Part shown: positions 1 through 52,469 of the stretch, piece after piece
Position numbering within the stretch: the first letter of the stretch is position 1
Layout: each line of letters begins with the position of its first letter
Assembly (NCBI RefSeq): GCF_040054535.1
Contig: NC_090788.1
Coordinates: forward strand, 19,467,001 to 19,531,000
Direction: 5' to 3'
Source of the DNA: Antennarius striatus
Taxonomy: Eukaryota; Chordata; Actinopteri; Lophiiformes; Antennariidae
Length of the DNA stretch: 64,000 bases
Program-made: the position numbers and the translations under genes
Notes under the pieces: generated by a model
What the model was told of the DNA's origin: nothing
Databases searched by the model: none
The model's input: only the letters and a program-made list of their open reading frames with translations

Positions 1-4503
<4,503 letters not shown>

Positions 4504-4850
4504 ACTTCCCATCAACCTGCTGATGTGTGTGTGTGTGTGTGGGGTGGGGGGACTCCTGGGACGTCCTGCTTCACCTGCAGACCCCTCCTCCTGGTGACCC
4601 CCCCCCCCACTGCTGCTCCAGGTGTGATCGGCTCCGTTCACCCTTTAACACTGGCCTGCGTGTGATCGTGTAACCGCTGCGTCACCGTCAACATCACTGT
4701 ACCACCATAGCGTGCATATGTTCAGTCTATGTGTATAGAAATGGTTTCCATGGTAACTACCGTCGACTATGGCCCCAGCTGACCTGTTTAGGATAATAAA
4801 AGCGTCTCTGTGTGAAGCCAAACGTCTGTGTTTCTGTTCAGGGTTGTTGG
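4504..4850 (+). terminator. pgk1 3' UTR with poly(A) signal
   Basis: After the stop codon there is a short TG tract and C run (about 4523-4610), then AATAAA at 4795-4800 in an A/T-rich setting. This is the first good poly(A) signal after the stop, so the transcript probably ends near 4815-4850. The cleavage site itself cannot be seen. Confidence 0.6.
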
Positions 4851-5360
4851 AACAGGAAATGACTGCACTGATGGAACACCAGTACCTGTCAGGTGATGCT
4901 AGTTTGGGTCCAGCAAGTAGACAGCTCCGCCTGTAGCACATCACACTCTTGAGAAGGGACAGCCAATCAGAAGCAGAGGAAGCCTCAGAACCCAGAGAGA
5001 ACTCAGCTGTGAGCCGACAGCGCCACCCTCTGGGCCATCATGCCACCCGCAGTTATAGTTTGACATTTAATTAATGAGGACTTACGAACAAGTCATCTTA
5101 CAAACAACCTCTCAGAACCAACTGTGTTGGTAGGCTGAGGACTTACATATTAAATACATTCATGTTTACACTCGCAGGTTTCCTCAGTGGACTTTACTGA
5201 TATTTAAAACCACAGAACTTTCAATAAAAATACACATTTAATAAACATTCTTCCAACATGAATCTCACAGCCATCTCAAACATTTTCTGAATTCACAGCC
5301 ACTTTTGGGGTTTTTTATGTTAATGAACCTGTGACATCACCACAGGGCGGCGGCGTGTCC

Positions 5361-7672
5361 TCATCCGGTCCAGTCCCCGTTCTGATTCTCATAATCTGGA
5401 TCAACAGCAGCAGCATCTTGGATGAATAAAGAAGAGTTTATCATATCAGAGGTTATCATAGGGCACGACCTTTAACCTGGAATGATGCGTCATATTCTGG
5501 AACAATGACCCGTTTGTGACCCCAGTGAGCTCATATTAAAAATGAATCTCTAGAAGAGTAAAATACTAAGTGGAGTGGATCTGGATGAGTTTATTCCTGC
5601 ATGTCAGGGTGACTCGTCTGACCCCTGGCGACCCCTGGTTTTTAACTTTTAAATGACTCCTGGTGACAAACCAACCAAACACTAAAGACTGCTGCTTTTT
5701 ATTTCTTAATATTTTGTCATTTCCTCTGATGTAGGTTCTGGGCTGGAACTGAGGATGTTTCCAGCATCAGTCAGTCTGCAGATTCTCTTCTTGATCTTCT
5801 GTTTATCATTTCTTTTATAAAAATCCGTGACATAAAAATTGACAACTACTCCTCTTGTAAATGACATTAATATCCTAAATATTTTATATGACAGAGAAAA
5901 ACAGTAAAAGATGACGTTTCTGGAATCAGAAACACTTTAATCATGACTGTATGATCAAACTAGCAGCAGATTAATTCCTGTCCTAATAAGATAATCCATC
6001 CCTGGATTCAGGGTTGCAGCTCTGCAGCTCCTGCACCAGAATAAGACAAAAATCTCTTTAAAAATAAAAATTACAAAATGAGGAAGTTCCTGACACTCAC
6101 AGGTTTCTTGCTCCTTCACGACGGTGCTGAGGAACTGAGAGTTCTCGTAGTCGTCGTCGTCTGTTGAAGGAAGCTGAGATGTTACCTCCTCACCTCAGCC
6201 AGGAACCAACAATCAATTCTGATCAAAACTGATTATTATACCGTCATTTATTGATGACAACATGTTTGCATAGATGTGAGGCGCCTGATCGACATCTGTG
6301 AAAACAGCAGTGTGTGATTCCACATGTTTATTTGACGGACTGTATTTCAGAGGGAAGGTAAAACATTCACCTCCTGTCTGAATCTCATTCTGCTCATTCT
6401 CATAGAAGGTGATTGGAAGAGGAGCTCTGGAAAAATATACACACACACACTCATCATTTCTCACCTTCAACTTGAGTAGGTGTACACACATTACATGCTA
6501 TTTGATTTTTAAAATTACTTTCATTCATAAAAGTCAAAATACAACTCTGTTGTTTTTTTTTATTTCAGTTCACTGTAATAAAAAAATTAATCCTAAATTT
6601 TCAAATTTCAAAATATCAAACCATGAACCAACATATTTAAACAACTGCTTCATTAGCATAAAGACAAGCTGAATAATTTGTAAGCGTGCGTTATATTAAA
6701 GCTCCGTGACAGAACAGGTTGTAATACTCACACATACGTATGTTCCAGACTTCTCATGTGACCTGAGGCGGTGATGGAACATTTACACTTGAGTTGGTAA
6801 ATGGTGACAAACACTGGATGCTGTGTTTGGTGGGCGTTAACATACCATCTTTAATGTTTTCATAATCTGCCTGTTCATCTGACTCCATCTGGTCTTCTAT
6901 CGCTGCTGTAATAGAAGGTGATTACAATGAAACCGGCTCTGATCAGGGTAATATAGACAAAAATTAAAGATGGCACTAGAACAATGAGGACACACCCACC
7001 TGGTGAAGCGTCACCACATACTTCGCTGGAAAAACAAAACCCATTTTGGTGTTAGTAGCATCTCATCACGTCACCTCTAATCCATACGCAGCCGTTAATG
7101 TGAAATCGATCAACGTTGAGTTGTGACAACTTCCTGTTTCAGGACAGCTTCCTGTTTCAGGACAACTTCCTGTTTCATGGCAAAACGTTGAACCTGGGGC
7201 CGGCGCCACCTTGAAGGTGTTCAGACTGTGAACCGAACTGAACCCCTGGGAGAAGGTTTTCAGATTTAATGTGACTGACTTCCTGTGTGGTTTGGTGAAG
7301 GTCCGGGTCTGATACAGATGCCTCTGCCTCACATGCCTGCCTGACATTTGTAGAGGGGGCTGAAAACCATTTAGTCACAGCCATCAGTAAAACCCACCAA
7401 GAACGACAACAGTCCTCCAACAACAACTGCAGAAAGTCTATTTATCTATCGATCTATCTATATATATGTGTGTGTGTGTTTGTGTTTGTGTGTGTGTGTG
7501 TGTGCCCGCGTGCACATGTGTGGCGTGCATGCACGTGTGTGTGTGTGTGTGTGTGAGTGTGTGTGTATACATACATTGGAGGCGAAGTTAAGGTGTTAAC
7601 TCTGGTGACTGAAAACAGGAGAATGTCATTAGTTTAGAGTTCAGATAATTCCTTGCCTTTCATAAAATAATA

Positions 7673-7722
<50 letters not shown>

Positions 7723-8485
7723 TATGATGATGATGATGATGATGATGAGGTTTACCTGTTGTCGACTGTGTCACAACAAAAACGTTTCTTCCATGTTGGC
7801 TGTAAAGAGCAGAGCTCAACTTTAGGACTTGATTCATAAACGTTAGTTTATTTGAGCTGCCCTCTATTATTGTCTCGTCCTCTGACTCTTAGGTGAAATC
7901 ATGCTGTCAGTCTAACGTGTCTGCGTTATACTCACAACATCTGCGGGTCATATATGTAATTCTCCTGAATGATCTCTGCAACAAAGAAGAGCCAAACGTT
8001 GATGATGAGGGATTTCAAGTGGATCTAGGATTTATTTAATGTGGGACAGGAACAATAACAAGATTCTTGTTTCCAGATTTATGGGTAACGTCTACAAAGA
8101 CTGGACAAAAATGACTTAGCAAACAAACTAATAATAATCCAGACTTAAACCGGGATTAAATTGTACTGGTTTAAATATAAATTGATAAGGAGGCTAATTT
8201 GATCCAGACTCTAGGGGCAGGTCTGCCAAGAACCAGCCCACAGAGGTGAATTTAAACACTTTCTTTAGTCCCAAACCCAAAGACTCTTCTTTTCCTCGTG
8301 AGCATCAACCGGTCAGTTTCGGTCCTGTTACACACTAAACATCCTGAGAGCAGGTTGGACCGTCCTGTGATGGTGGACTCACTGGATTTTCTTTTGCATC
8401 GCAGACAGAGGAACGACAGCAGACTCAACATCGACACCGACAAGGCAGCCAGGACAGCAGCCAGCAGGCCAGAGGTCGCTACCAT
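5361..8485 (-). CDS. LAT/LAT2-family transmembrane adaptor, eight small exons, 141 aa
   Basis: Exons on the minus strand: 8485-8383 (ATG; acceptor at 8489-8488 just before it), 7975-7936, 7359-7333, 7025-7000, 6905-6846, 6424-6371, 6160-6101 and 5416-5361 (TGA). Every junction has AG/GT and the phases chain without a stop, giving 141 residues. Residues 5-28 form one hydrophobic membrane helix that ends in a CLRC pair (27-30), like the palmitoylated CxxC of LAT and LAT2. The cytoplasmic tail is acidic and carries four YEN motifs (Tyr80 YENI, Tyr93 YENE, Tyr108 YENS, Tyr132 DYENQ), the YxN form bound by GRB2-type SH2 domains when phosphorylated. I see no LAT-type PLC-gamma site (YLVV). Known role of the family: membrane scaffold downstream of antigen or Fc receptors. 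LAT versus LAT2 is unresolved: KIIQ after the CxxC recalls LAT2, while the DYEN end recalls LAT. The acceptor at 6426-6425 is the second AG of a CAGAG, chosen for phase. Confidence 0.72.
7456..7567. repeat. (TG)n compound microsatellite
   Basis: Interrupted TG dinucleotide tract in the second intron of the LAT-like gene, with a short alternating purine-pyrimidine break at 7500-7535. Confidence 0.9.
7672..7748. repeat. (ATG)n trinucleotide microsatellite
   Basis: About 25 ATG units with one interruption (AATATG) near 7720, in the intron between exons 2 and 3 of the LAT-like gene. The poly-His reading on the minus strand is an artefact. Confidence 0.95.
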
Positions 8486-12131: not shown

Positions 12132-15100
12132 GCAGTGGGGCAGTGGGGTACCGATCCACAGACCCCCAGGGTAGAAACAAGAACCAACAACATCTCCAGA
12201 ACATTTAGTCACTATGGAAACGGGGGCAGCAACATCCATCAAACTCTCTGGGTGTATTAGGTTTATTGGTGACATCTTCTCTCAGCTGTTTCCAAAAACC
12301 TCCTCAAACAAAAACAGTTCACCAACATTCACCCCAGAAGACCCAGCAGAGAGGCTCCAGAGCCATCTAGATTTGACCCAGGAGCTCTGATGTGGGATCC
12401 TGTGGAGCCACCAAACCATAATAAACCTGGAGTCAGGTGAAAACATCTGCATCGTCATTGGAAATTCTTAAAAGGATGATGACCCCAAACTGCTTCCAGA
12501 AGAAGTCCTGATCATTCCAGTCACCCGACTGGAATAGAAGACTTCTGGTGGGATCAGAGGAATGGGGCTGCTGCAGGTAAACCAGGAATATTCCAGAACT
12601 GGAGGTCATTCTAGAGGAATAGGCTAAGATTCCTCAGAACGCTGGGGTCTGGATCTTCGTCATCAGATCTTAGTACTTAAAGGGTTTCTAGGAAGAAGTG
12701 GAGATACTGGACCATCAGATGTTGGACCATCAGATGTTGGACCATCAGATGCTGGACCATCAGATGCTGGACCATCGGATGTTGGACCATCAGATGCTGG
12801 ACCATCAGATGCTGGACCATCAGAAGCTGATGGATGAGGGGAACACACTGTTGGTTGATCTATTAAGTTGTTGTTGTTTCAAACACTCAGCATCAACATC
12901 AAATATCTGGGGGGGTGAGGTTGACTGACACACTTCTGTTCAGAGTGGCTGTGAACAGCCGTGTGTCTAAATATGGCCGGGTTCCGCTAATGCTAGCAAA
13001 CGAGGTTAGCAGATTAGCCGTGAGCCGGGGCGGGTCATCCTCATCCTCACCGGGGGTATTAGCTTCAGACAAGACGGCGTGATGTGACGTGATGTGACAG
13101 CACGGCGCCATCCCTCTGCTGCTCAGCACAGGAAGTGCAAATAAGTGTGTTTCTGCGCCGCGGCGTGGCTGTGATGCGGTCACATGATCATTTACCACTT
13201 TTTTTTCCCATCCTGTGTAGTTCCCAGAGGTCATCTCTCTGAATGTCGGGGGCACGCACTTCACCACCCGTCTGTCCACGCTCCGCCGCTTTGAGGACAC
13301 CATGCTGGCCGCCATGTTCAGCGGGCGTCACTACATCCCCCGGGACTCCGAGGGGCGCTACTTCATCGACCGGGACGGGATGTATTTCGGGTGAGTGGCG
13401 CCGTGTGATCGTCGCCCCCCCCCCCCTGCTCATTATTCATGTTGTTTATGCTGAGTGAAGATGTGTGTTTGACTTTTGTGTGGCTCTGTGATGAGCTGGC
13501 GTCTTATGTGGGGTGTACCCCACTTGCTTGTCAACGGCTAGGATAGGCTCCAGCAGACCCGTGACCTGCAAGGTGGATAAAGCTACAAAAAGAAAAAAAA
13601 AGGATGCTGGCCCCGCCTCTAACCCCGGCACAGCTCCACCCACTAACACCCACGCATGCACACATTCAGCAAAATCCTTCCCATATTAATACAGAATTAT
13701 TACTTAGTTTTATAAATTGTTAGTTTTATTTATTATTATTAGATTTATTATAATGGTTCAGATTGAAAATAAACTATTATTGGATGATTATCAGATAATA
13801 TTCTTCTTCACATGGATAACATTTTTTAGAGCCTATTCCTTTTTGCTTCCTAATATTTAAACGTAAAGATTTATTTCTTTAAAATCAGTCATCCATAAAA
13901 AATCTATAAATGATTCCTTTTTACAGAAAACTTCAGCTTTAACTCTTTTTTGGGTCCTGGTGAGCACAATGACCGATAATAGCAATGGACATTACCATAT
14001 CATGTTTTTTATGTTATGTCATCTTGACTCAAGAGCCAATCAGATCACACATTACATCAGAGAAGCCTTGTGATGATTGGCTGCAAGGAAAAATTAAGAT
14101 TTTTTTTTTTTAAATTCTGGGTCTAAATCATTCAAACTCATTGTTTGAAGACGTTTGGATCTTGGTTATTTCTCCACATCCCATAACGTTCATGAGCACT
14201 GCCAGCTAGCGGGACCTAGCAGCATCCTCACTGTGAATCAAAGGAAGCCCGACAGCCAATCAGAGCGGGCTGTGGAGCATTCGCTGACCCTGAAGCCGGG
14301 CTGTGGGTCCGATTGGCTGACTGTGCGCCCCCTTCACAGGGACATCCTGAACTTCCTGCGTGAGGGCGAGCTGCCCCAGAGGGAGCGGGTGAGGGCGGTG
14401 CACAGGGAGGCTCAGTACTACGCCATCGGCCCCCTGCTGGACAGCCTGGAGGACACGCAGCCGCTCACGGGGGAGAAGGTTCGACAGGCCTTCCTCGACC
14501 TGCTGCCCTACTACAAAGGTAACCGGAGTCTTCCTCAAGTGGAATCTGTGACGTCTTGATTTCATTATTATTTTTATTCCACTCAGGAAGAAAAAAATAA
14601 AAATTACCAAAGTGGAAAAATATAAAGTCTGGAAGATAACACAGCTGCATGGTTGTGGTCATTAGAACACCTGTTTGATACAGGAAGTGGTCAGTCATGT
14701 GACCTGCAGGAGTCATGTGACCATAAACGTCTGCTTAAATTACTAAGCTGGAAATTTTTCTGCAATAATTTTCAGACGCGGTACATGTTAAAGCTGTATA
14801 GAACACACACACACACACATACACACACACACACACGTATGGGTGGACCCATTCTTTCACATGTCCTCCACCCACCTGATGGTGAATAAAAATATCTTAA
14901 AGTTCTAATCAAACTCTTGTTGCCAGGGAGACAGGAAGCCCCCTGAGTGTCAGTTTAATGATGCTAACGACCTGTTAGCCTCTCACACACACACACACAC
15001 ATAGGGAAGAAAACACTTCTTGTTTAACAACAGGGAGTACCAAAGAGTTTCCCCGCATCAGGCGCGTGTTCCTGTGCGTTCCAGAGAATCTGGAGCGGAT

Positions 15101-15461
15101 TGTGGAGATCGCCAAACTGAGGGCCATGCAGAAAAAGGCTCGCTTCGCCAAGCTGAAGATCTGCGTCTACAAGGAGGAGATGCCCATCACGCCCTACGAG
15201 CGTCCCCTCTTCAACTCGCTTCGCTTCGAGCGCTCCGACAGCGAGGCCAAGCTGTTCGAGCACCACTGCGAGGTGGACGTCTCCTTCGGACCCTGGGAGG
15301 CGGTGGCGGACGTTTACGACCTGCTGCACTGCATCGTCAGCGACCTGGCCGAGCGAGGCATCGCCGCCGAGCAGCAGTGCATCGGCGTCTGCGACAAGCA
15401 TCTGATCAACCATTACTACTGCAAGAGGCCCATCTACGAGTTCAAGATCACCTGGTGGTGA
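11736..15461 (+). CDS. kctd7: BTB/POZ potassium-channel tetramerisation-domain protein 7
   Basis: Exons 11736-11897, 13221-13390, 14340-14518 and 15085-15461 (TGA) join in phase to 295 residues; human KCTD7 has 289. The start was chosen because MVVFSAAGD then AMSSSDPAEDEF matches the human N-terminus (MVV..., AMSSSDAEDDF). The same frame is open further upstream, so a longer N-terminus cannot be excluded. The BTB/T1 domain begins at residue 55 (FPEVISLNVGGTHFTTRLST) and runs through FIDRDGMYFGDILNFLR. The C-terminal half (LLPYYKENLERIVEIAKLRA through YCKRPIYEFKITWW) is nearly identical to human in the parts I can recall. Known of the family: cytosolic adaptor for CUL3 ubiquitin ligase that affects neuronal excitability and autophagy-lysosome function; human loss causes progressive myoclonic epilepsy. 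Human KCTD7 neighbours RABGEF1, which also lies in this window. Confidence 0.96.
12063..12129. repeat. (TG)n microsatellite
   Basis: Uninterrupted TG dinucleotide tract of about 33 units in kctd7 intron 1. Confidence 0.97.
12706..12826. repeat. 15-bp minisatellite, eight units
   Basis: Eight head-to-tail units of GGACCATCAGATGYT, nearly all identical apart from a C/T at position 14 and one A-to-G change. The array is in kctd7 intron 1. Because the unit is a multiple of three it stays open in several frames, but there is no sign that it is translated. Confidence 0.93.
13450..13660 (+). mobile_element. 3' half of a fish tRNA-derived SINE-like repeat
   Basis: The segment TGATGAGCTGGCGTCTTATG, then GGGTGTACCCCACTT and GGATAGGCTCCAGCAGACCC, is the familiar 3' body of a dispersed fish repeat. 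It lies in kctd7 intron 2. The tRNA head is missing, so this is a truncated copy. Confidence 0.6.
14805..14836. repeat. (CA)n microsatellite
   Basis: Short interrupted CA tract in kctd7 intron 3. A second short CA run lies at 14985-15001, close to the acceptor of exon 4. Confidence 0.9.
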
Positions 15462-23477: not shown

Positions 23478-24070
23478 GGTTGATATAGATATATAAATAT
23501 AGATATACAGATATCAATAGATAAAAATGTTTTAAGATATTTTACTGATTTCATCTCATTTGAAAAACAATGCTGACCCAAACACGATGCTAACAGAAAA
23601 TACATATTACAGTTATGAGTATTTCCTCTCGCCTAATGTTTAGTATCTTTAAATCATTGGTGGAAGAACCCGACCAGACTTCTCCCTCTTTATATCTATC
23701 ATGGAGATGTGGTTTCAGTCATAGAAACAGAAGTAGGAGATAATCCCAGCCCTTGCTGAGAGCTTCATGCTGGTTCTTCTGCAGCGTGAGGCAGAAGTAC
23801 GTGGGTCACCATCAGTGTTTTTACTTAAACACAATATTCAGAGTCTCCCTTCCCTCTCATCAGGACCAGCCACTCTCCTGGTTCTTCACAACGAGGTCAG
23901 AGGATGGTCAGAGTAGCAGAAGCAAAGGACTGTCTGGCCCCTCACAGAAGATAGACATCTCCATGTTCACTACCACTCAAAGCCGTCTGGATGGATGAAC
24001 AGATGTTTTCTCTTCAGAACTAATAATCTGCATGTTTCCCTCCAACAGGCTTGAATCCCCCAGCAACCCC

Positions 24071-27053
24071 ATGGAGCAGGATGTGGAGAGCCCGGCCATC
24101 ATCAGACAGCCCAAGTTGCCAAAGCAGGCTCGCGAGGATCTGCCCAAACAGCATGCTGAGATGTACCGAACAAAGAAGATCCAGAGGTACGTCCAGAAGG
24201 ACGGGAAGTGCAACGTCCATCACGGGAACGTCCGGGAGACCTACCGTTACCTGACCGACATCTTCACCACGCTGGTAGATCTGAAGTGGAGGTTCAACCT
24301 CTTCATCTTCGTGTTGGTGTACACGGTGACGTGGCTCTTCTTCGGCTTCATGTGGTGGCTTATCGCCTACCTCCGGGGGGATCTGGACCATCTATCGGAC
24401 AACCACTGGACTCCTTGCGTCAATAACCTCAATGGGTTCGTATCGGCCTTTCTGTTCTCCATCGAGACCGAGACCACCATCGGTTACGGATACAGAGTCA
24501 TCACGGACAAATGCCCCGAGGGGATTCTTCTGCTTTTAGTTCAGTCGGTGTTGGGGTCCATCGTGAACGCCTTCATGGTGGGCTGCATGTTTGTTAAGAT
24601 CTCACAGCCCAAGAAGCGAGCAGAGACGTTAGTGTTTTCCACCAACGCGGTCATCTCCATGAGAGATGGGCGGATGTGCCTGATGTTCAGAGTGGGTGAC
24701 CTCCGGAACTCGCACATCGTGGAGGCGTCCATCAGGGCCAAGCTCATCAAGTCCAAGCAGACCAAGGAAGGGGAGTTCATCCCGCTCAATCAGACGGACA
24801 TGAACGTGGGCTACAACACTGGAGACGACCGGCTGTTCCTGGTGTCGCCGCTCATCATCTGCCACGAGATCAACCAGAACAGCCCCTTCTGGGACATCTC
24901 TCAGGCTCACCTGGCCAAGGAGGAGCTGGAGATCGTCGTCATCCTGGAGGGGATGGTGGAGGCCACAGGTGAGTGTTACAGGAAATGAGTGTTGTAGATC
25001 ATGTGTCAGCAGGATTACACTTAAACCACATGATGGAGTTTCATGAAACCTGCTGGAACAGAGACTGGGGTCACCAACCAGAGTCCAGAGTCCTTACGCT
25101 TCCCTTCATGGTGCTGTGTTACTCTACGTTACCCTGACTTACCCTTCGTTACCCTGCGTTACGCTACGAGATGTGCATGCAGGCTGATGATGTCAGAGGT
25201 ATTGAGCTGACTGTAGCCACAGAAACGGGATCTGTCCAAACACATTAAAATACAAGAGTATATGTTAATGACTGAGATCTGATGGGGTGTTCAGACGCCA
25301 GATGACTGTAGTCATCTTTCCCACATTCAGCCAAGACAAAATGAACCAATTACATAACGTCTGAGTGCGTTTTTTGAACAGCTGCTGGAGACTCACAGAG
25401 GACTTTTCCTGCAGACAGCTGAGCCAAAGATTCAAATCAAAACACAAGAAAACGCATCTGAAAGTGGCCGAAACCCGTGAAACCCCTCTACCCCTGGACG
25501 TCGGGGGAGAGGGGTTAGGTGTAGGGTTGGATCTCGTTGCAGATAGAAAGATGAAAGAAAAAGCATATTACTCGGGCAGCAATGGGGATGAAAATGAGAT
25601 GATGACCTTGACCATGAGAAAACTAGGTCAAGGTCAAAATTTCACTTTTATACCTTTTTAATGCCCATAACATTATTGTAGGTTGTCCTGGGTCTGTCTG
25701 CTACAGTATACCTCTAGCAGTGGTCAACTTACAAATATGAAATGAAAAGCCAAATACTTGATAGTACAATATAGAATTCATTGCTGCAACCATTATGAAA
25801 GCAGGTCAAGGTAAAATTTTGAATTCAGGGGTGTCGCGGGATGTTGCAGTCTTTGACTGCCTTGTTTGTTCCTCCATTCGTCAATTTATTCATCTAAACA
25901 TTTTACACTTTTGCAGCATGCATGAAAAATACTAATTAACCCTATTTACCTTTGGGCCAGTGACATGACAAAATCCATAACCTTTATTAGTTTTAGTTCA
26001 TATGAAATCAGTGTGATTCTGGAACTCATAACCAGCTAGTTGAAAGAGCTTCAGACAGACTTCACTCAGAGCCGTCAGGGGGATGGAAATCAGATTTGGA
26101 TGCATTATGAAATGTAGTAAGAAGAGTCTTTGGCCTGATGACAGCCTGAAATGAAGTCAGTGAATCACCGAAGCCTTCACAGTTCATTCTGTGATTGATG
26201 GAAATGCATGTTTTCACTGAGTCATAAGAAATACTTGATTGACTGATGGATTGTAATTGCTGACACTGCCGACATGGGGGATAGAAACGGCCCTGTTTCA
26301 GGTCTCTAAATGTTCCTGGTGACGTCTGAGGGTGACACAGCAGGTTTTTCATTTATGAATGTTAAGGAGGTGCAGGAACAACACAGCCTGACGTCAGAGA
26401 CACAGGTGCTCCTGGACTCTGGGCAGGCTGGACGCTCATTTAGATTCAGCACCGCCTCCTCTGACGGCATGAGACCACCGCTAACACCGTATGATACACG
26501 TCTGTAAAACTCCTCGGTGAACATCACTGCATCCATGGTAACGGTATACTAACAAACATGTTCTGTACCCATCGATGTCAGCATCTTCACAGAGTGCCTC
26601 AAACAAAACCCCATTGAACCGTCACATCTACTTTTACCTGCAGAGAGATGAACATATATCCCATGAACCTTTGCTCTTTGGTGTCGCTCTGTGTCTTCAG
26701 GCATGACGTGTCAAGCAAGGAGCTCGTATGTCAGCAGTGAGATCAAGTGGGGCTACCGGTTCACACCGGTCCTGACCCTGGAGGACGGCTTCTACGAAGT
26801 GGACTACAACAGCTTCCATGACATCTACGAGACCAACACCCCACCCTACAGTGCCAAAGATTTGGCTGACATCACCAGTCGCAGCCGCTTGCCCCTCACC
26901 TGGTCTCTGGCCAGTAAGCTGAGCCAGCAGGGCCTGCCAGAGTCCGAGCAGGAGGGTCAGGAGACCAAGTCCAGCCAGGAGAACCAGGGCAAGAACCAGC
27001 AGACGGAGAGGAACGGCGACATCGCCAACTTAGAGAGCGAGTCCAAGGTGTGA
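24071..27053 (+). CDS. kcnj6: G-protein-gated inward rectifier K+ channel Kir3.2 (GIRK2)
   Basis: Two coding exons, 24071-24968 and 26701-27053 (TGA), join in phase (ACA G|GC ATG) to 416 residues. The start is the MEQDVESP methionine, matching human MDQDVESP; the acceptor AG at 24047-24048 lies just upstream. The preceding in-frame codons (LESPSNP) could be coding if an upstream exon supplies another ATG, as in the longer human N-terminus. Features: M1 helix from [20 protein letters not shown], pore helix and selectivity filter [10 protein letters not shown]2 from [19 protein letters not shown], then the cytoplasmic Kir domain including [11 protein letters not shown] and [11 protein letters not shown]. 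The C-terminal ESKV is a PDZ ligand of the SNX27-binding type. Family role: opened by G-beta-gamma after Gi/o receptor activation, causing slow inhibition in neurons. [13 protein letters not shown] and [13 protein letters not shown] separate it from GIRK1, 3 and 4. Confidence 0.96.
25525..25875 (+). repeat. dispersed repeat with TCAAGGTCA motif, copy 2
   Basis: Same family as 16690-17146. It begins near GTTGCAGATAGAAAGATGAA, has ACTAGGTCAAGGTCAAAATT, and ends GGGATGTTGCAGTCTTTGAC then TGCCTTGTTT. It lies in the kcnj6 intron between the two coding exons. Confidence 0.8.
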
Positions 27054-29917: not shown

Positions 29918-31819
29918 CTACCCAGCAGACATCTGGGGTGTGAGGGGGGGCGGCAGGTTGTCGCTGTCCGCGTTGCGGTCGTCCAAAGCAGACACCGGGC
30001 GGGGCAGAATCTCCAGAGGGTATTTCTCCAGAGCGCCGTTGACCTCCTGCTGGACGCCCCCGGTCCAGGTCAGCAGGTCGTCCTGCAGCCTCTGCGCCGC
30101 CTCCATCACCGCCTCCTGGCGGCAGTTGAGGCCCGACAGCGTCTCCAGGTTCTGGTTGAGCTCGGCCAGGACCGGGTTGATGGGAGCTCCGCCGGGGGCC
30201 GAGTCGGTCTGAGACCAGTCCGCCTCCGAGCCGTTGGAGCGGGGCGACGCCTGGCCCGACATGTAGCGCTCAAACTCGTCCGCAGAGAGGTTGAGGGATT
30301 GAGCGTCCAGCTTCTCGATGAAGGCCACGGCGCAGCACTGAGGAAGAGGAGACACGGGTCAGCAGATGAAGACGAGGTCAAGGTTTCATCACATCCAGTG
30401 TCAGGGTCCAACACACAATTCCATTCTATCCTCCACTGCTCTGTGACCCGGGGTGCACTGACCCCTCAAATATAGCTTCTAATCCTCCAGATCTAGATTA
30501 GATTAGATTAGATCCAGATCCACAAGCAGAGGCAGGGTAAATAAAAGATGGTTACCATCCAGTAACAGAAAAAGCATCTACAGTAATCCCTCGTTTATTC
30601 ATGCTTCAAGATGCACAGCTTCACCACATCACGGATTTTTAATAGGTAGTCATGTGATACCATACTCGCATGCTATTGGCTGACAGCCAATAGTTGCGTT
30701 CCGACTCACAATTCTTTTTGCGACTTTTCTTTAATACAAAAGTGCTTTAAACAGTCTATAAAAGTGTGGGAAAAGGTAATACAGATAGAAGGTGGTTTAA
30801 TATCAGTATGGGGAGGGTTCAAAAACATTTAAATTACCGTAAATAATAAAATAGTTTGTTGCTCTATCGCGGAATTTCGTTTTTCCCGGTTGGTCCTGGA
30901 ACACATTAACCACGAGAAACGAGGGATTACTGTACGTAAACTCTCTATAGCTTTCCTTATCCACTAATAATCTGTAGAAATGTTAAATACTGACAGAAAT
31001 ATCTCATTAACGTGGATGAATATGTAACCGGGTTGTTGTTAAGCCGTTTATAAAACCCACTATTTATGCAATGTTATGTTATTTTCTGTCCTGTAATGAG
31101 GTCAGACTTGTCACTAGTTGATGTCAGCATTAGAATACCGGCGTCTGATCCAGTTTCCAGCAGCAGAGAAGTCTGTCGTCAAGCTGCTGTGGGGGTGGGA
31201 GGCCTGATCTGTCAGAAATCGAGGGGCACCGGAACCGAAAAAGTGGAAAGAGGAACTGGGACTGGGTTTGAGTTAACCGTTTGAGGAACAAACAGGAACC
31301 GATGAGGAACCGATGAGTCAAAGCGAACGCCAGGAGGAGCAGGAGGAGAATCTGACCAGGTTGGTGAAGAAGTATCCGTCCTCCCCGGTCATCAGCCGGC
31401 TGGGGTTGCAGAAGCGGGTGATGTACTGGATGTTGGACTGCAGCCGGGGGGGGTTGGCCTTCAGCACGATGTAGATGAGCGCCGGGAGGAAGTCGTCGGC
31501 GGACGCCGGCTCGTTTTTGGTGATCCGGATGGCGCTGAAGATGTGTTTACTGCAGCGGGTGACGCAGCCCAGCTTGTCACGAGGAACTCGCTTCGAGTCC
31601 ATCTCGATGATGTCTGGGGACACAAACAAACAAACAAACACAAGTTTATCACCGTGAAAAACAAATCACTTGAGTTGATCAATAAGCAAATACTCTGACA
31701 GTTCATTTCTTTCTTGTTCCAGTTGTTTAGATGTAAAGTTTGACTTGTTTTATTACTTTTATATTATAAGTATAAAGTCAAGCTACTGAAAATAAAGGAA
31801 ACACTTTTCTACCTCTTGT

Positions 31820-31887
<68 letters not shown>

Positions 31888-31897
31888 GTGTGTGTGT

Positions 31898-31990
<93 letters not shown>

Positions 31991-33346
31991 TTTTAAAACA
32001 CACCACCTACTCTCCCCTGAAGGCCGAATCTTTCTCTCACCTGTTATTGCTTGGACCACGTTCTCAGAGACTTCTGGGATGTCTTCCTCCATGGACACAC
32101 ACAGCATCTGGATTGTTACCCAGCGCAAGGCCCTGACACGCAAACACAAACACACACTTTACACACACAGAACCAGCCGACTTTCACTCAGTTTATCTGT
32201 ATTATCATCATCCTCTTGGATCTGCTGACTCCAGAAACACACACCTAATCCTCGTCTGCGTCGCTAAGTCCTTCCTTTCATCGTCGGTGGTCTCTGGACA
32301 GAACACGCTCTTATACAGACGAGTCATGATGTACTTCTCCACCTGGTCCATCACCTGCTCCACCGACTCCGACGACCCTGGTGAACAGAGACCGATCAGA
32401 TCACGAGGAGACGTCAGCTGACTGCAGGAGACCTCTGGACCCACCTTTGAAGTGACTCATCAAGCGTTCGGCCATGTTCTGGTAGAAATCCTGAACGCAC
32501 TCCGATAGTTCGTCAGCACTCAGGTCCTGCAAGGAGAACGCCAGCGTGAAGGTCAAACACAGGTCAACAAACGGTTCTACGTCACCGGACCACAAACAGT
32601 TTCACACCTTCTTGCTCGACATGTTGACGATGAAGGCTCGGCACTGCTTGTGGATCTCTTTGCCGGGCTTCTGCAGGTTTTTCAGGAAGTCCACGAAGTC
32701 CTTGGAGACCTGATCCATGTCGAAGCTGGTGCGGCGGCTGTTGGACGGACTCGGGGTCTTGCCCTCTTGGTTTTCTGAGGAGGAACGACATCAAGAACAC
32801 GTGACACGTCTGTCTGAGGTCAGAGACGGCGAGCTGGTCTTCACACACTCTGTCACACCTTTCTTAGGAGCGACACGTGATGAAGGGCTGAAGAACTTCT
32901 TGACGGTGGTGACTTTGCGTGTCTTCTCATTTGTCTTCTTCTCCTCGAACTTGGAGAAGGGTCCCAGAGAGGCGGGGCCCGGGTGTGGGTGTGGAGGAGT
33001 GGGGTGGGAGTGGGTCTGGGAGTGGGGCTGTGCTCCATGACTACTGGCATACGCCGCCTCCTCCTCTCGCTGCAGCCTGTTGCCGACGACAACGGATAGA
33101 GCAGACATCATCACATGATCACCACAACATGAGGGGTATTGTAGTCCTGGTGAAGCAGTGGTCTTACTTTTCTGCCAAGGCCCAGTCGTCCTGGATCTGT
33201 TTCTGCCGGACCCGCTGGTACTCCTCCCTCCAACACTTGGAGCACAGGCCCTGCCATGCTGCATTGCCATAGTAACCGCATCCCTTTTTGCACAACAGGT
33301 CTGATTGGTCCACATGTATCCCCCGTCGCTCCGTCCGCTGACTCAT
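29918..33346 (-). CDS. rabgef1: Rab guanine nucleotide exchange factor 1 (Rabex-5)
   Basis: Minus-strand exons: 33346-33168 (ATG), 33076-32859, 32774-32608, 32526-32445, 32377-32245, 32132-32041, 31613-31357 and 30337-29918 (TAG). All have AG/GT and chain in phase to 515 residues. The N-terminal A20-type zinc finger has Cys19, Cys23, Cys35 and Cys38 ([22 protein letters not shown]), as in human, followed by an LQREEE helix of the ubiquitin-interacting type. The VPS9 catalytic region includes [38 protein letters not shown] and [20 protein letters not shown]. The C-terminus begins [20 protein letters not shown] and includes a coiled-coil-like stretch ([15 protein letters not shown]). Known role: activates RAB5 on early endosomes with rabaptin-5 and binds ubiquitin. 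The 3' end faces kcnj6. Identity is very secure. Confidence 0.96.
30579..30934. mobile_element. pogo/Tigger-like MITE with TA target duplication
   Basis: The element runs from CAGTAATCCCTCGTTT at 30581 to AAACGAGGGATTACTG ending at 30932. The 16-base ends are exact inverted repeats, flanked by TA at 30579-30580 and 30933-30934. About 352 bp, no coding capacity, consistent with a non-autonomous Tc1/mariner-superfamily (pogo-type) element. It is inserted in the last rabgef1 intron. Confidence 0.85.
31823..31989. repeat. long (TG)n microsatellite
   Basis: About 167 bases of TG with a few GTGTGGTGTG interruptions near 31880-31902, in a rabgef1 intron. Reading frames of repeated Thr-His or Val-Cys through it are artefacts. 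Confidence 0.97.
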
Positions 33347-43485: not shown

Positions 43486-46444
43486 CTAAGCCAGGAGCTC
43501 ATTCATTGTGGGGAAAGTAACATATTTTTTTCCTTTTGGGGACACACAGATGGCCTCTCCATTCTTGGCGATGTCGGTTATCAGCTCCAGCATGGGCTCC
43601 ACTGTCTCAGATACACTGAGGACACAAAGGACCTCTGTGAATTTATAGGTCTGTAGCGTCACATGGTTAGTGTCCCCTTCACGGGCTCATATCTGATTGG
43701 CTTTTCAATGCACTCAATTCAGAGAAATGTAGTTGATGGGTTCAGACTCACCTTAAGACCCCCAACTTGGCTAAAACCTGTTCGTTGTACTCATTCAACT
43801 TGGAGAACTGTCCCAGGTGAGATGGGATGTCGGAGAAGAGTTCAGTTTGGACAAACGTGGGGCAGAGTGCGTTGACTCTTATACCATAGCCTAACGCAGC
43901 AAAAGCAGCCTGGTGATAAAAATGTTGTAAAATATTGTGGACCTGTCAAAATAACTTCACTGTTAGCGTGTTAATCAGCCACGTGTCCAGTCAGGCTCTC
44001 GACCGTTGATCACACCAGGCCCAGGTCAGACATACAGACAGAAGAAGCCTACAAAGTTTCTTCATGAAAACACAAGCTTCCTCACCGCAGTACTCCGTGT
44101 GAAGCCAATCACCCCATGCTTGGTGGAAGTATAGACGGGCATGGACATCACAGGAAAGACACCTGCAGGACGGGAGAAGTTAGGGTTTCAGGTGTGAGGG
44201 TTAGGGTTAGGTTAGATTTAATTACAACGGCTGAGAGTCAGGCATAAGTTCCAGCCAGTACACCAGGAACAAATGAAACAGCTGGACATACGCCGTTCTC
44301 CTTCAGGATGGATACATGAATATTTTTCATAGCTCTTCTTCATTTTACTGCACAACCTCCCCAATAACAGGAAGAACCTCTAATAGCAGCAAAGCAGAAG
44401 TTCAGTCTCTGCCTCTTTGACTCTACCCTCTGCTAATAAAGGATGATGCATCAGTTCAGCCCTGATGACAGAAGGGTGAGCCAAGTAAAAGTCCATCCAC
44501 CAAATGAGTGATTTATTAAAAGTGCAGGCCTAAAATGAACTGTTCCATCCAACAGTCTGAACTTAAAACAATCCTGACTCTTACACCTTCATGCAAGGTT
44601 ATGGTATGCATCTGCAGATACATAAAGCTGACTAAAAACAAATGCTACTGCAATGAAGTCATGTGTGAATGTGGGTACCTGCAGCAGATGCTGTGTTGAT
44701 GATCACCCCTCCTCGATCTCCATTCAACTTGCGCATGAGCTCTGTGGCCAAGTAGGTGCCCCTGATGACGGCCACCTGCAACACACAGGAGGCATTAGCT
44801 GAGAAGGTTCCTGTCTCTGGAGATGTCGGTATAGTGGTGCCATTTCCCTCATGGCGGGTGTGTGTGGGGCAGCTTGCTGCTCCTCTTACAAGGTTGATGG
44901 AGACGGTTTTCTCGAACAGAGCCTCGTTCAGGATGCCAGCGTTGTTGCACATGATGTCGATTCCTCCAAAGGTGTCGACTGTCTTCTGCAGGGAGTCTTT
45001 AGAGGAGATGTGGGTAACCGTTAGGGCACTTCACCTTAAAGTTCATGGCCTCGATTAAGGGCTTCAGCACCATTTTATTACAGCAGCACACATACGACAT
45101 GATTGATTAATGATTATTCCCCTTTAATCTGGAAAAGAAAGGTAGATAAATAATTGTGATACGTTGTACATTTTGTTTGCTTGTGTGTCTGTCGTAACGT
45201 GTTTATCTGACCTGATTTTAAATGTAAATGGGGCATTGGTTAAAAAAAAAAGGTAAACTTGATCTACAATAAAGAGTTCATGATTAACTTCTACTGAAGC
45301 TGGACCGTTGTGTGTTACCTCTGAACTGCTCCTCTGACTCAACGTCACAGCGGACAAACAGAACTCGCTCTGGTCCAAACTGTTTCGACAGGACCTCCAC
45401 TAAACTCTTTGCTGCGGTTTCGTTCACATCCAGGAGGGCGACCTGGACAGGACCAGAACACCTACCGTCAGACTCTCATGACCTCTTTAAAAGATGCTCG
45501 TCTTGTGACCTTGTGTCACCCAACAGTCACCCAGCAGTCATCTATCAAGATACCCAATAGTCAACTACCAGTCATCTATCAAGATACCCACCAGTCATCT
45601 ATCAGTTTCCCAACAGTCACCCACAATGACATTTGAAAAACGTGTTTCATGTTGATTTGTAGTTCCTACTTTGGATCAAAGATTAAAATTTGCAGCATTA
45701 TTGATGAGAGACACCTTCACTTGAAAAATGTTACATTCTTCAAACTTCACCCCTCCAGTTTGTGAGTACTGGTACTAGTAATAGCATTAGTAGAAGAAAT
45801 AGTAGTAGAGGAAGAAACCACATTCACTTGTCCTGCATAGGGGAAATGATTTTTCCACTCTACCTGGTAATAATAGTCGTAGGAGTAGTAGTGGTAATAG
45901 TAGCAGCTATAAAAAAAAAAAAGTTATAGTAGTAATAGTGATAGTAATAGTAATTGGCTGTGGTAATAGTAATTAGCAGTAGTAATAGTAATAGTAGTAA
46001 TAGTAATACTGATAGTAATAACAGTAGTAATAGTAATACTAATGGTAATAGTAATAGTAACAGTAGAAATAATAGTAATAGTAATTGCTAACTTTTTTCC
46101 TGTAACTCTGTGACTTTACAGGTTTCACTGACAGATTTCTGCTCTCCTGTTCACTTCCTACATGGTTTAACATGTTTTTTCTCCATGAATCTGAAGAACC
46201 AGCAGAGATCCAGATGGACCAGCCAACATCTGGATCTCTGCTGGTGAACACACACCACACAGTCCACACAACAGGAGTCCTACACACTGTCTGTGGTCGG
46301 GAGGGGTCCACACAGTCTGGATCCACGCAGTCCGTGGAGGACCAACTCTACCTTGGCTCCGTGTTGCAGGAGTAACTCGGTCATCGCCCTTCCGATCCCC
46401 ATCGCCGCGCCGGTCACCGCCGCCACCTTCCCGGTCAGAGCCAT
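43486..46444 (-). CDS. hpgd: 15-hydroxyprostaglandin dehydrogenase-like SDR, tandem copy 1
   Basis: Minus-strand exons: 46444-46352 (ATG), 45442-45319, 44996-44890, 44775-44679, 44162-44086, 43909-43752 and 43615-43486 (TAG). All AG/GT, phases consistent, 261 residues; human HPGD has 266. Classical short-chain dehydrogenase motifs: NAD-binding TGAAMGIG (11-18), NNAG, the catalytic Ser in INTAS and, 13 residues later, YTSTK with the catalytic Tyr and Lys. The start MALTGKVAAVTGAA aligns with human MHVNGKVALVTGAA. Known reaction: NAD-dependent oxidation of the 15-hydroxyl of prostaglandins, which inactivates them, in the cytosol. All catalytic residues are present, so it looks functional. Fish carry several hpgd-like genes, so the precise paralogue is not settled. 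It is the downstream member of a head-to-tail pair with 52243-48188. Confidence 0.9.
45519..45625. repeat. short tandem repeat (CCAACAGTCACCCA type), copy 1
   Basis: Repeating ACCCAACAGTCACC, CAGTCATCTATCAAGATACC units in hpgd intron 1. The equivalent in copy 2 spans 50709-50872 and has rearranged unit order. Confidence 0.8.
45860..46085. repeat. (GTAATA)n-type simple repeat, copy 1 intron 1
   Basis: Irregular TAGTAATAGTAATA array of about 225 bp with a short A run near 45910. Its counterpart in copy 2 is at 51484-51890 and is longer. Poly-Tyr reading frames here are artefacts. Confidence 0.9.
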
Positions 46445-46714
46445 GACTGCTGCTGGGCGGGAGGAGGGAGACGTCTGCGCCGCATTTAAAGAGGCTGGCG
46501 TGAGAGACGCCCACGGACACTAGTGACACGCCTCAGAGTGTCCGTCCATACCGTATATGAACGGAACCAGTCCCGTCCACTATACAGACACTCAGTGTCA
46601 GCTGGTGCTGTATGCCCTTGATTAGGGGGTATTTGTCTGTTAACAGAACCACCGGGTGTCTAGTGCTGGTGTTCACATCATCCACGCGTCGGAGAACACG
46701 TTCCATCCAGCCGC

Positions 46715-48187: not shown

Positions 48188-51100
48188 CTAAGTCAGGAGC
48201 TCCATCAATGTGGGAAAGGTAGCATATTTTTTTCCTTTTGGGGACACACAGATGGCCTCTCCATTCTTGGTGATGTCAGTTATCAGCTCCAGGATGGGCT
48301 CCACTGTCTCAGATACACTGAGGACACAAAGGACCTCTGTGAATTTGTAGGTCTGTAGCGTCACATGGTTAGTGTCCCCTTCACGGGCTCATATGTGATT
48401 GGCTATTCAATGCCCTCAATTCAGAGATAAATATAGTTGATGGGTTCAGACTCACCTTAAAAGCCCCAACTGGGCTAATAACTGTTGGTTGTGCTCATCC
48501 AGTTTGGAGAACTGTCCCAGGCGAGATGGGATGTCGGAGAAGAGTTCAGTTTGGACAAACGTGGGGCAGAGTGCGTTGACTCTTATACCATAGCCTAACG
48601 CAGCAAAAGCAGCCTGGTGATAAAAATGTTGTAAAATATTGTTTTATACAAATACCCAGTGGTGGACCTGTCAAAATAACTTCACTGTTAGCGTGTTAAT
48701 CAGCCACGTGTCCAGTCAGGCTCTCGACCGTTGATCACACCGGGCCCAGGTCAGACATACAGACAGAAGAAGCCTACAAAGTTTTCTTCATGAAAACACA
48801 AGCTTCCTCACCGCAGTACTCCGTGTGAAGCCAATCACCCCATGCTTGGTGGAAGTATAGATGGGTATGGACATCAGAGGAAAGATACCTGCAAGATGGG
48901 AGAAGTTAGGATTTCAGGTGTGAGGGTTAGGGTTAGGTTAGATTTAATTACAACGGCTGAGAGTCAGGCATAAGTTCCAGCCAGAACACCAGGAACAAAT
49001 GAAACAGCTGGACATACGCCGTTCTCCTTCAGGATGGATACATGAATATTTTTCATAGCTCTTCTTCATTTTACTGCACAACCTCCCCGATAACAGGAAG
49101 AACCTCTAATAGCAGCAAAGCAGAACTTCATTGACTCTACCCTCTGCCAATAAAGGATGTTGCATCAGTTCAGCCTTGATGACAGATGGGTGAGCCAAGT
49201 AAAAGTCCATCCATCAAATCCAATCCAATCCAATCTTTATTTGTTAAGCACTTTACAACAACCACAGTCGACTAAAGTGCTGCACAGACGAATAAAAAAA
49301 ACCCAAAACATTATAGATAAAAGACAAAATGGCTCAAATATTATAAGTCAAATAAATTAATCAAAAACATAAAACATGGATAAAAGCAATCAGAGCAATA
49401 AAATAAAATAAAATCCATTGTCCATCTAGATGTTAAAAGCCAAGGAGAAGAGGTAGGTTTCCACAAGCTATTTAAAAACAGACAGAGAAGAGGCCTGTCT
49501 GATTTGCTGAGGCAGATTATTCCGTAATTTAGGAGCCACAACAGCAAAGGCATGGTCCCCTCTGAGCATCCGTTTGGTTTTGGGCACACTCAGAAGAAGC
49601 TGATCAGCTGACCTGAGAGAGCGAGCAGGTATGTAAGGGAGTAGAAGCTCAGAGAGGTAGGGCGGGGCAAGTGCATTTAGGGATTTAAAAGTAAATAAAA
49701 GAATTTTGAAATGGATTCTAAAATGTATGGTTAGCCAGTGGAGTGACGCTAAAATGGGGTGATTTATTAAAAGTGCAGGCCCAAAATGAACTGTTCCATC
49801 CAGCAGTCTGAACTTCAAACGATCCTGACTCTTACACCTTCGTGTAAGGTCATGGTATACACCTGCAGATACAAAAAGTTGACTAAAAACAAATGCTACT
49901 GCAATAAAGTCATGTGTGAATGTGAGTACCTGTAATGGATGCTGTGTTGATGATCACCCCTCCTCGATCTCCATTCAACTTGCGCATGAGCTCTGTGGCC
50001 AAGTAGGTGCCCCTGATGACGGCCACCTGCAACACACAGGAGGCATTAGCTGAGAAGGTTCCTGTCTCTGGAGATGTCGGTATAGTGGTGCCATTTCCCT
50101 CATGGCGGGTGTGTGTGGGGCAGCTTGCTGCTCCTCTTACAAGGTTGATGGAGACGGTTTTCTCCAGCAGAGCCTCGTTCAGGATGCCAGCGTTGTTGCA
50201 CATGATGTCGATTCCTCCAAAGGTGTCGACTGTCTTCTGCAGGGAGTCTTTAGAGGAGATGTGGGTAGCCGTTAGGGCACTTCACCTTAAAGTTCATGGC
50301 CTCGATTAAGGGCTTCAGCACCATTTTATTACAGCAGCACACATACGACATGATTAGTTAATGATTATTCCCCTTTAATCTGGAAAAGAAAGGTAGATAA
50401 ATAATCGTGATACGTTGTACATTTTGTGTTTGATTGTGTCTGTCGTAACGTGTTTATCTGTAATAAAGAGTTCATGATTAACTTCTACTGAAGCTGGACC
50501 GTTGTGTGTTACCTCTGAACTGCTCCTCTGACTCAACGTCACAGCGGACAAACAGAACTCGCTCTGGTCCAAACTGTTTGGCCAGGACCTCCATTAAACT
50601 CTTTGCTGCGGTTTCGTTCACATCTAGGAGGGCGACCTGGACAGGACCAGAACACCTACCGTTAGACTCTCATGACCTCTTTAAAAGATGCTCGTCTTGT
50701 GACCTTGTGTCACCCAACAGTCACCCAGCAGATCTATCAGTTACCCAACAGTCACCCACCAGTCATCTATCAAGATACCCACAATTATCCTGAGAGATGA
50801 CTGGCAGGTAACTATCAGTTACCCAACAGTCACCTACCAGTCATCTATCAGTTACCTAATAGTCACTCACCAATGACATTTGAAAGACGTGTTTAGTGTT
50901 GATTTTTAGAGACTACTTTGGACCAAAGATTAAAATTTGTAGCATCATTGATGAGAGAAACCTTCGCTTGAAAAATGTTACCTTCTTCCAAACTTCATTC
51001 CTTCAGTTTGTGAGTACTGGTACTAGTAATAGCATTAGTAGAAGAAATAGTAGTAGAGGAAGAACAAACCACGTTCATTTGTCCTGCATAGGGGAAATGA

Positions 51101-52243
51101 TTTTTCCACTCTAGTCATCATTTGTTATTGTAATCATCTCATGGCAGTAGTGTTTCTGACTGGGTTGTTCAACAGGATCTTAAATGGTGAGGAATGGAGG
51201 AGAAGTGTGCTGGTGCCCATTTTTAAGAACAAAGGAGATGTGCAGAGTTGTGGCAACTACAGAGGAATAAAGCTGATGAGCCATACAATGAAGTTATGGG
51301 AGAGAGTAGTGGAAGCTAGACGAAGGGCAGAAGTGAGCATCTGTGAGCAGCAGTATGGTTTCATGCCAAAAAGGAGTACTACGGATGCAGTATTTGCTTT
51401 GAGGATGTTGAAAGAGAAGTATAGAGAAGGCTACAGGGAGCTGCATTGTGTTTTAGTAGATCTGGAGAAAGCTTATGACAGTAGAAGTAGTATGAGCAGT
51501 AGTGGTAATAGTAGTAGCCATAGGAAGCTAGTTATGGTAGTAGTGGTAGTAATAATGATAGTAATAGTAATTAGCAGTGGTAACAGTGATTTTCATTAGT
51601 AATAGTAATAGCAATAGTAGTACTGTAATAGTGATAAAAGTGGTAATTCCGATGGTAATAGAAGCAATAATAGTAATTAGCCGTAGTAATAGTATTAATA
51701 GTAATAGTAGTAGTAGTAATAGCAATATTAATAGTAATAGCAGTAATAATAGTCATACTAATGGTAATAGTTAGAGTAATAGTAGTAAAACAGTAATAGT
51801 AGTAATTGTAAGAGTAATAGCAGTAGTAATAGTAATACTAATGGTAATAGTAATAGTAACAGTAGAAATAATAGTAATAGTAATTGCTAACTTTTTTCCT
51901 GTAACTCTGTGACTTTACAGGTTTCACTGACAGATTTCTGCTCTCCTGTTCACTTCCTACATGGTTTAACATGTTTTTTCTCCATGAATCTGAAGAACCA
52001 GCAGAGATCCAGATGGACCAGCCAACATCTGGATCTCTGCTGGAGAACACACACCACAGAGTCCACACAACAGGAGTCCTACACACTGTCTGTGGTCGGG
52101 AGGGGTCCACACAGTCTGGATCCACGCAGTCCGTGGAGGACCAACTCTACCTTGGCTCCGTGTTGCAGGAGTAACTCGGTCATCGCCCTTCCGATCCCCA
52201 TCGCCGCGCCGGTCACCGCCGCCACCTTCCCGGTCAGAGCCAT
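48188..52243 (-). CDS. hpgd: 15-hydroxyprostaglandin dehydrogenase-like SDR, tandem copy 2
   Basis: Minus-strand exons: 52243-52151 (ATG), 50636-50513, 50247-50141, 50026-49930, 48888-48812, 48613-48456 and 48317-48188 (TAG). Exon lengths are identical to copy 1, giving 261 residues. Exon 1 encodes the same 31 residues. Differences cluster in the last three exons: IFPLMSIPIY for VFPVMSMPVY, KLDEHNQQLLAQLGLL for KLNEYNEQVLAKLGVL, and ATFPTLMELLT for VTFPTMNELLA. NAD-binding and Ser/Tyr/Lys catalytic residues are kept, so this copy also looks intact. Two LINE pieces have entered its introns since duplication (49218-49757 and 51115-51483). The changed residues lie in the C-terminal part that forms the substrate lid in SDR enzymes, so substrate preference may differ (inference). 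Confidence 0.9.
49218..49757 (-). mobile_element. 3' piece of an L2/Rex1-like LINE in hpgd copy 2
   Basis: The minus-strand reading LASLHWLTIHFRIHFKILLF, then TFKSLNALAPPYLSELLLPY, then LPQQIRQASSLSVFK is the conserved C-terminus of fish L2-type LINE ORF2. A stop codon follows SVFK and interrupts the usual ending (LVETYLFSLAF follows in frame). The piece ends in (CAATC)n at 49218-49232. It lies between exons 4 and 5 of copy 2; copy 1 lacks it at the matching point (about 44518), where AAATG is the likely target duplication. Confidence 0.85.
51115..51483 (+). mobile_element. RTE-type LINE reverse-transcriptase fragment in hpgd copy 2 intron 1
   Basis: An open frame holds GEEWRRSVLVPIFKNKGDVQ, CGNYRGIKLMSHTMKLWERV, EQQYGFMPKRSTTDAVFALR and LHCVLVDLEKAYD, the standard start of an RTE/BovB-type reverse transcriptase. 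Both ends are missing. Copy 1 has uninterrupted sequence at the matching point (about 45870). Confidence 0.88.
51484..51890. repeat. (GTAATA)n-type simple repeat, copy 2 intron 1
   Basis: The expanded counterpart of 45860-46085, directly abutting the RTE LINE piece. The right-hand 100 bp are nearly identical to copy 1. Confidence 0.9.
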
Positions 52244-52469
52244 GACTGCTGCTGGGCGGGAGGAGGGAGACGTCTGCGCCGCATTTAAAGAGGCTGGCGT
52301 GAGAGACGCCCACGGACACTAGTGACACGCCTCAGAGTGACCGTCCATACCGTATATGAACGGAACCAGTCCCGTCCACTATACAGACACTCGGTGTCAG
52401 CTGGTGCTATATGCCCTTGATGAGGGGGTATTTGTCTGTTAACAGAACCACCGGGTATCTATCTATCAA

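Follow-up and report, generated by a model that had tools for sequence, protein, structure and literature searches.

Positions 8485 to 5361 on the minus strand of the window, the whole 64,000-nt stretch of Antennarius striatus DNA that was analysed (on contig 13 of the 548-Mb assembly), can with good confidence be read as an intact-looking vertebrate gene for a transmembrane adaptor of the LAT2/NTAL type, with 11 predicted coding exons and 187 residues. LAT2 (NTAL, also termed LAB or WBSCR5) is a membrane adaptor known from signal relay in immune cells, B cells among them. The locus is very likely a real gene and probably the fish orthologue of LAT2/NTAL, ordinary in kind, and does not define a new adaptor class. 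We present a corrected exon map for this probable fish LAT2, a micro-exon gene prone to mis-modelling. Among the matches listed in a literature search on fish LAT2/NTAL, no title names a fish LAT2 adaptor.

According to excerpts of PMC4143283, mammalian NTAL carries a palmitoylation motif of CxxC form and is able to bind GRB2, SOS1, GAB1 and CBL. The same excerpts place its expression in B, NK, dendritic, monocytic and mast cells, not in resting T cells, and describe it as a negative regulator in mouse mast cells. Excerpts of PMC4861716 give it five putative GRB2 sites, describe its phosphorylation by SYK and partly by LYN, and report that mast-cell activation is inhibited more strongly when LAT and NTAL are both lost than when only LAT is. 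Direct binding of PLCgamma1 is denied to NTAL in the excerpts of both papers.

GENE MODEL

An initial annotation had proposed a LAT-type signalling adaptor hidden in micro-exons at this locus, built from eight minus-strand segments. These are indeed present (103+40+27+26+60+54+60+56 = 426 nt), form a single open frame of 141 aa, and contain, as described there, one membrane helix, a CxxC (CLRC) and four YEN motifs. The better-supported model has 11 exons, in which phase is kept from exon to exon, the frame stays open and every intron is GT-AG (window coordinates; scores are for splice sites):

8383..8485, minus strand: exon 1, 103 nt; start ATG, membrane helix and CLRC; donor score 3.4
7936..7975, minus strand: exon 2, 40 nt; KIIQENYIYDPQMF; GT-AG and phase kept
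7756..7799, minus strand: exon 3, 44 nt; FQHGRNVFVVTQSTTV; skipped in the initial annotation
7575..7608, minus strand: exon 4, 34 nt, of which only the last 27 nt had been taken; acceptor score 2.2
7000..7025, minus strand: exon 5, 26 nt; donor score 6.8
6846..6905, minus strand: exon 6, 60 nt, phase 1-1; site Y97, YENI
6732..6762, minus strand: exon 7, 31 nt; GHMRSLEHTYV; acceptor score 3.8; previously skipped
6371..6426, minus strand: exon 8, 56 nt (previously 54); site Y121, YENE; acceptor score 2.2
6242..6295, minus strand: exon 9, 54 nt, phase 1-1; site Y140, YANM; previously skipped
6101..6160, minus strand: exon 10, 60 nt, phase 1-1; acidic run and site Y154, YENS
5361..5416, minus strand: exon 11, 56 nt; site Y178 (PDYENQNGDWTG) at the C-terminal end, then the stop; weak acceptor (score 0.2)
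5237..5242, minus strand: candidate polyadenylation signal ATTAAA, ~118 nt beyond the stop, by pattern only

The start ATG has G at both -3 and +4. Behind a short N-terminus lies the membrane helix, with twelve 19-residue Kyte-Doolittle windows inside residues 1-30 (maximum 2.34), and the CLRC motif is juxtamembrane at residues 27-30. The tail, probably disordered, carries five Y-x-N tyrosines (Y97, Y121, Y140, Y154 and Y178), one exon each, in addition to Y112. Exons 6, 9 and 10 are all of phase 1-1 with lengths that are multiples of three, making them three frame-neutral cassettes. Where a minimal adaptor of 141 residues with four GRB2-type sites had been proposed, this model thus gives 187 residues and five YxN sites, the fifth being YANM in exon 9.

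RELATIONSHIP TO LAT2

The only Pfam-A family matched by the 187-aa chain at E<=10 is LAT2 (PF15703), with E=1e-5 and 26.0 bits over residues 31-161, which together with the helix, CxxC and YxN sites bears out the assignment to a LAT-type adaptor in micro-exons. This score lies 1 bit below the curated cut-off of 27 bits, as do, by larger margins, those of the other matching chain variants (all six: 26.0, 25.7, 25.3, 21.6, 20.6 and 18.3 bits); because this technical threshold is missed, we speak of a probable LAT2 orthologue and not of a certified family member. With shuffled tails placed behind the real helix, none of five sequences matched LAT2, and one gave matches to LAT (PF15234, E=0.008) and PAG (E=0.16); the helix by itself can draw weak matches, which call for caution. 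A search of PDB sequences returned three chance matches (E 1.4-1.9) and one of NCBIfam a single chance match (E 0.096).

Working versions of the human LAT2 and LAT sequences were used for pairwise comparison; the LAT2 version scores 251.7 bits to PF15703. Against it the 187-aa chain scores 79 locally (shuffles 44.4 +/- 4.6), 97 overall (43.2 +/- 11.6) and 64 for the cytoplasmic part (27.7 +/- 8.3), and in none of the three comparisons was any of 500 shuffles as good. In the alignment, human Y95, Y110 and Y119 are the counterparts of Y97, Y112 and Y121, with spacings of 15 and 9 in each protein. Further on, the global alignment sets Y154 against human Y136, and the C-terminal third of the human sequence has no partner. 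By eye, a one-to-one order of sites can be suggested (YENI/YQNF, YVAPLP/YIDPIA, YENE/YNWG, YANM/YENV, DYENS/EYQNS, PDYENQ/PDYVNG), the second half of which disagrees with the global alignment.

The likeness to LAT2 extends to a short N-terminus, a single helix, CxRC and five YxN sites and, against the working human sequence, to a KI-Q...D-Q--F block and a Y-[IV]-x-P-[IL] site placed between the first and second YxN at the same spacing. By eye, the two also share an acidic run ahead of a YxN and a PDY-x-N near the C-terminus. They differ in length, the fish chain having 187 aa versus 243 in human and 203 in mouse (excerpts of PMC4143283), and the place of the missing part depends on the alignment.

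That the gene might instead encode the fish form of LAT, the T-cell adaptor, is quite unlikely. LAT shares the plan of helix, CxxC and YxN sites, the C-terminal PDYEN of the fish chain resembles the LAT sequence PDYENLQELN, and Y112 (YVAPLP) could take the place of the LAT PLCgamma1 site. Against the cytoplasmic part alone the working LAT sequence does reach 49 (shuffles 31.7 +/- 8.5, 20 of 500 as good). However, it does no better than shuffles locally (49, 500/500 as good) or overall (51, 82/500), whereas the working LAT2 sequence outscores every shuffle; and the LAT profile PF15234 finds no match in the 187-aa chain at E<=10 in the scan where LAT2 is the single hit.

PAG1, LAX1 and SIT1 are further single-pass adaptors of lymphocytes with tyrosine motifs. 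None of these families was matched by the 187-aa chain in the Pfam-A scan at E<=10; the library contains the PAG model and, we assume, those for LAX and SIT. LAX lacks a palmitoylation motif according to excerpts of PMC4861716, whereas the fish protein has CLRC.

Searched against the whole genome, the 187-aa protein has no match beyond its own locus at E<=0.001. The sole other match at E<=10 (E=0.29, on contig 14) was judged to be chance, because within frames of at least 30 aa at 2500-7500 of that region there is no helix-CxxC exon, and the acidic-YxN pattern is unmatched. Whole-genome searches with PF15703, PF15234 and the working human LAT2 sequence found nothing; since the method cannot join micro-exons, this empty result shows no absence. 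As to synteny, we take the human order to be RFC2-LAT2-EIF4H. In this genome the best matches to EIF4H and RFC2 fall outside contig 13, on contigs 6 and 2 respectively, so that the human-type neighbourhood was not found and synteny lends no firm support to LAT2. KCTD7 and RABGEF1, both in the window, presumably lie on human 7q11 like LAT2, but some Mb away from it.

The missing RFC2/EIF4H neighbourhood, like the PF15703 score slightly below cut-off, would suit a YxN adaptor confined to fish, or the relic of a dead LAT2. We consider either very unlikely: eleven open, in-phase exons with GT-AG introns would be unexpected in an old relic, and three sites with identical tyrosine spacing, together with a profile match to LAT2 alone, argue for an orthologue of LAT2.

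SPLICE-CHAIN SEARCH

The exon chain was also sought blindly, by dynamic programming. Apart from a fixed first exon and a fixed final stop, the search drew on nothing but approximate splice-site matrices, phase, stop codons and limits on length, and it was run with several exon penalties and sets of thresholds. At penalties 2-4 the best chain contains exon 3 (7799-7756), exon 7 (6762-6732) and the acceptors 7608 and 6426, and with them exons 4 and 6; the result is the same when the sites of both rival models are all permitted (loosest set, penalties 2 and 3). At penalty 5 the best chain leaves out exons 3, 4 and 6 and retains exon 7, which is kept at every setting. Exons 2, 5, 8 and 10 are likewise part of the best blind chains. 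A runner-up, with 7340-7280 replacing exon 4, scores merely 0.5 lower.

The blind optimum departs from the 11-exon model in two places: it omits exon 9, which is in phase and open with a weak donor (score -1.9) and is possibly a cassette, and it favours the alternative acceptor 5395 over 5416 for the last exon. With the two loosest threshold sets it also gains an in-phase 27-nt exon within intron 4 (7359-7333, minus strand, PLYKCQAG), not adopted as default because the LAT2 score then drops from 26.0 to 21.6 bits (20.6 if exon 9 is also removed). With the tightest thresholds both the 11-exon and the eight-exon chain fall outside the candidate set.

The optimum scores 29.6 at penalty 3 (30.6 with the loosest set) and 37.6 at penalty 2. 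When the interior was dinucleotide-shuffled, no shuffle out of 200 did as well, whichever of two threshold sets was used; when other window sequence, including stretches of neighbouring genes, was placed as the interior, one of 73 placements reached it (one threshold set).

Profile scores follow the exons found in this way. Without exon 3 (and with the shortened exon 4) the LAT2 score falls to 18.3 bits; without exon 7 (and with the 54-nt exon 8) there is no LAT2 match at E<=10, nor is there a LAT2 match when exons 3 and 7 are both removed and exon 9 is kept. The exons added by the splice search therefore carry much of the family signal. Removal of exon 9 costs 0.7 bit (25.3), and the variant with acceptor 5395 scores 25.7.

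The eight-exon chain is open and in phase, but once the 44-nt and 31-nt exons are skipped its frame must be rescued, and for this reason its acceptors shift to 7601, a weak inner site (0.6 versus 2.2 for 7608), and to 6424, an AG-AG site (-5.5 versus 2.2 for 6426). Its score at penalty 3 is 13.2, whereas the 11-exon chain reaches 25.2, that chain minus exon 9 reaches 27.6, and chains that include the skipped exons go up to the loosest-set optimum of 30.6. Its 141-residue product matches no Pfam family at E<=10, and in the comparison with the working human LAT2 sequence shuffles equal it 28 times in 500 locally (score 55), 11 times in 500 overall and 122 times in 500 over the cytoplasmic part. 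A minimal eight-exon adaptor of 141 residues and four GRB2 sites, exactly as first written, is therefore hardly credible. The lesson is that a chain built on phase only may look perfect and yet skip exons.

TYROSINE SITES AND PREDICTED FUNCTION

For immunology, the 11-exon model predicts an NTAL that is short and carries five sites of GRB2 type, as well as one tyrosine of another type, Y112 (Y110 in human LAT2), whose partner is of interest. This site, TYVAPLP, spans the junction of exons 7 and 8, and the residue before Y112 is T. In human LAT2 we take the corresponding place to be YIDPIA. The PLCgamma1 site of LAT is Y132, of YLVV type; no such motif is present among the nine tyrosines of the 187-aa chain, a further difference from LAT.

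Excerpts of PMC3514216 give the GRB2 pattern as pY-[V/E]-N, which four of the five YxN sites fit; YANM deviates at +1. Y112 (YVAPLP) resembles the PLCgamma-binding Y1021 of PDGFRB (DYIIPLPD), and fails the PLCG1_C pattern pY-phi-x-D/E found in the same excerpts. The initial annotation had stated that there is no PLC-gamma site, which agrees with mammalian NTAL; the statement does not settle the matter here, because it was made on a model without exon 7, which builds the Y112 site. Judged from its sequence, Y112 has a low probability of recruiting PLCgamma.

If the fish protein works as its family does, the CLRC cysteines would be palmitoylated and, upon immunoreceptor engagement, SYK/LYN-type kinases would phosphorylate the YxN sites. 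These would then bind adaptors of GRB2 type and, through them, SOS1, GAB1 and CBL, so that ERK and calcium signalling would be tuned in B and myeloid cells. We infer every functional step in the fish by analogy with the family. It is conceivable, and in our view unlikely, that the fish LAT2 combines functions of LAT and LAT2, with Y112 recruiting PLCgamma directly and cassette splicing setting GRB2 valence. If true, the former would exceed what mammalian NTAL can do, and the layout of one YxN per exon with cassettes 6, 9 and 10 would let splicing tune the latter.

NEIGHBOURING GENES

The remainder of the window holds the following genes:

1370-3776, plus strand: phosphoglycerate kinase exons, four pieces of which match PF00162; tail to tail with the LAT2-like gene, with earlier exons, by eye, from base 1
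14149-15461, plus strand: KCTD7; piece 14979-15458 matches the KCTD7 structure 8i79 (E=6.5e-73), and the piece before it has a BTB_2 match at the cut-off
23999-27050, plus strand: inward-rectifier potassium channel gene (PF01007, PF17655), of GIRK type by eye
29921-32456, minus strand: exons of RABGEF1/Rabex-5, a Rab5 exchange factor
44400-46600 and 49600-52400, in the same orientation: two closely similar 15-hydroxyprostaglandin-dehydrogenase-like (HPGD-like) copies

Five 100-column alignment blocks of the two HPGD-like copies are identical throughout, and the pair reads as a recent tandem duplication or gene conversion. The second copy contains an insert that is absent from the first (51057-51599, plus strand), with an open frame that by eye resembles a reverse-transcriptase fragment.
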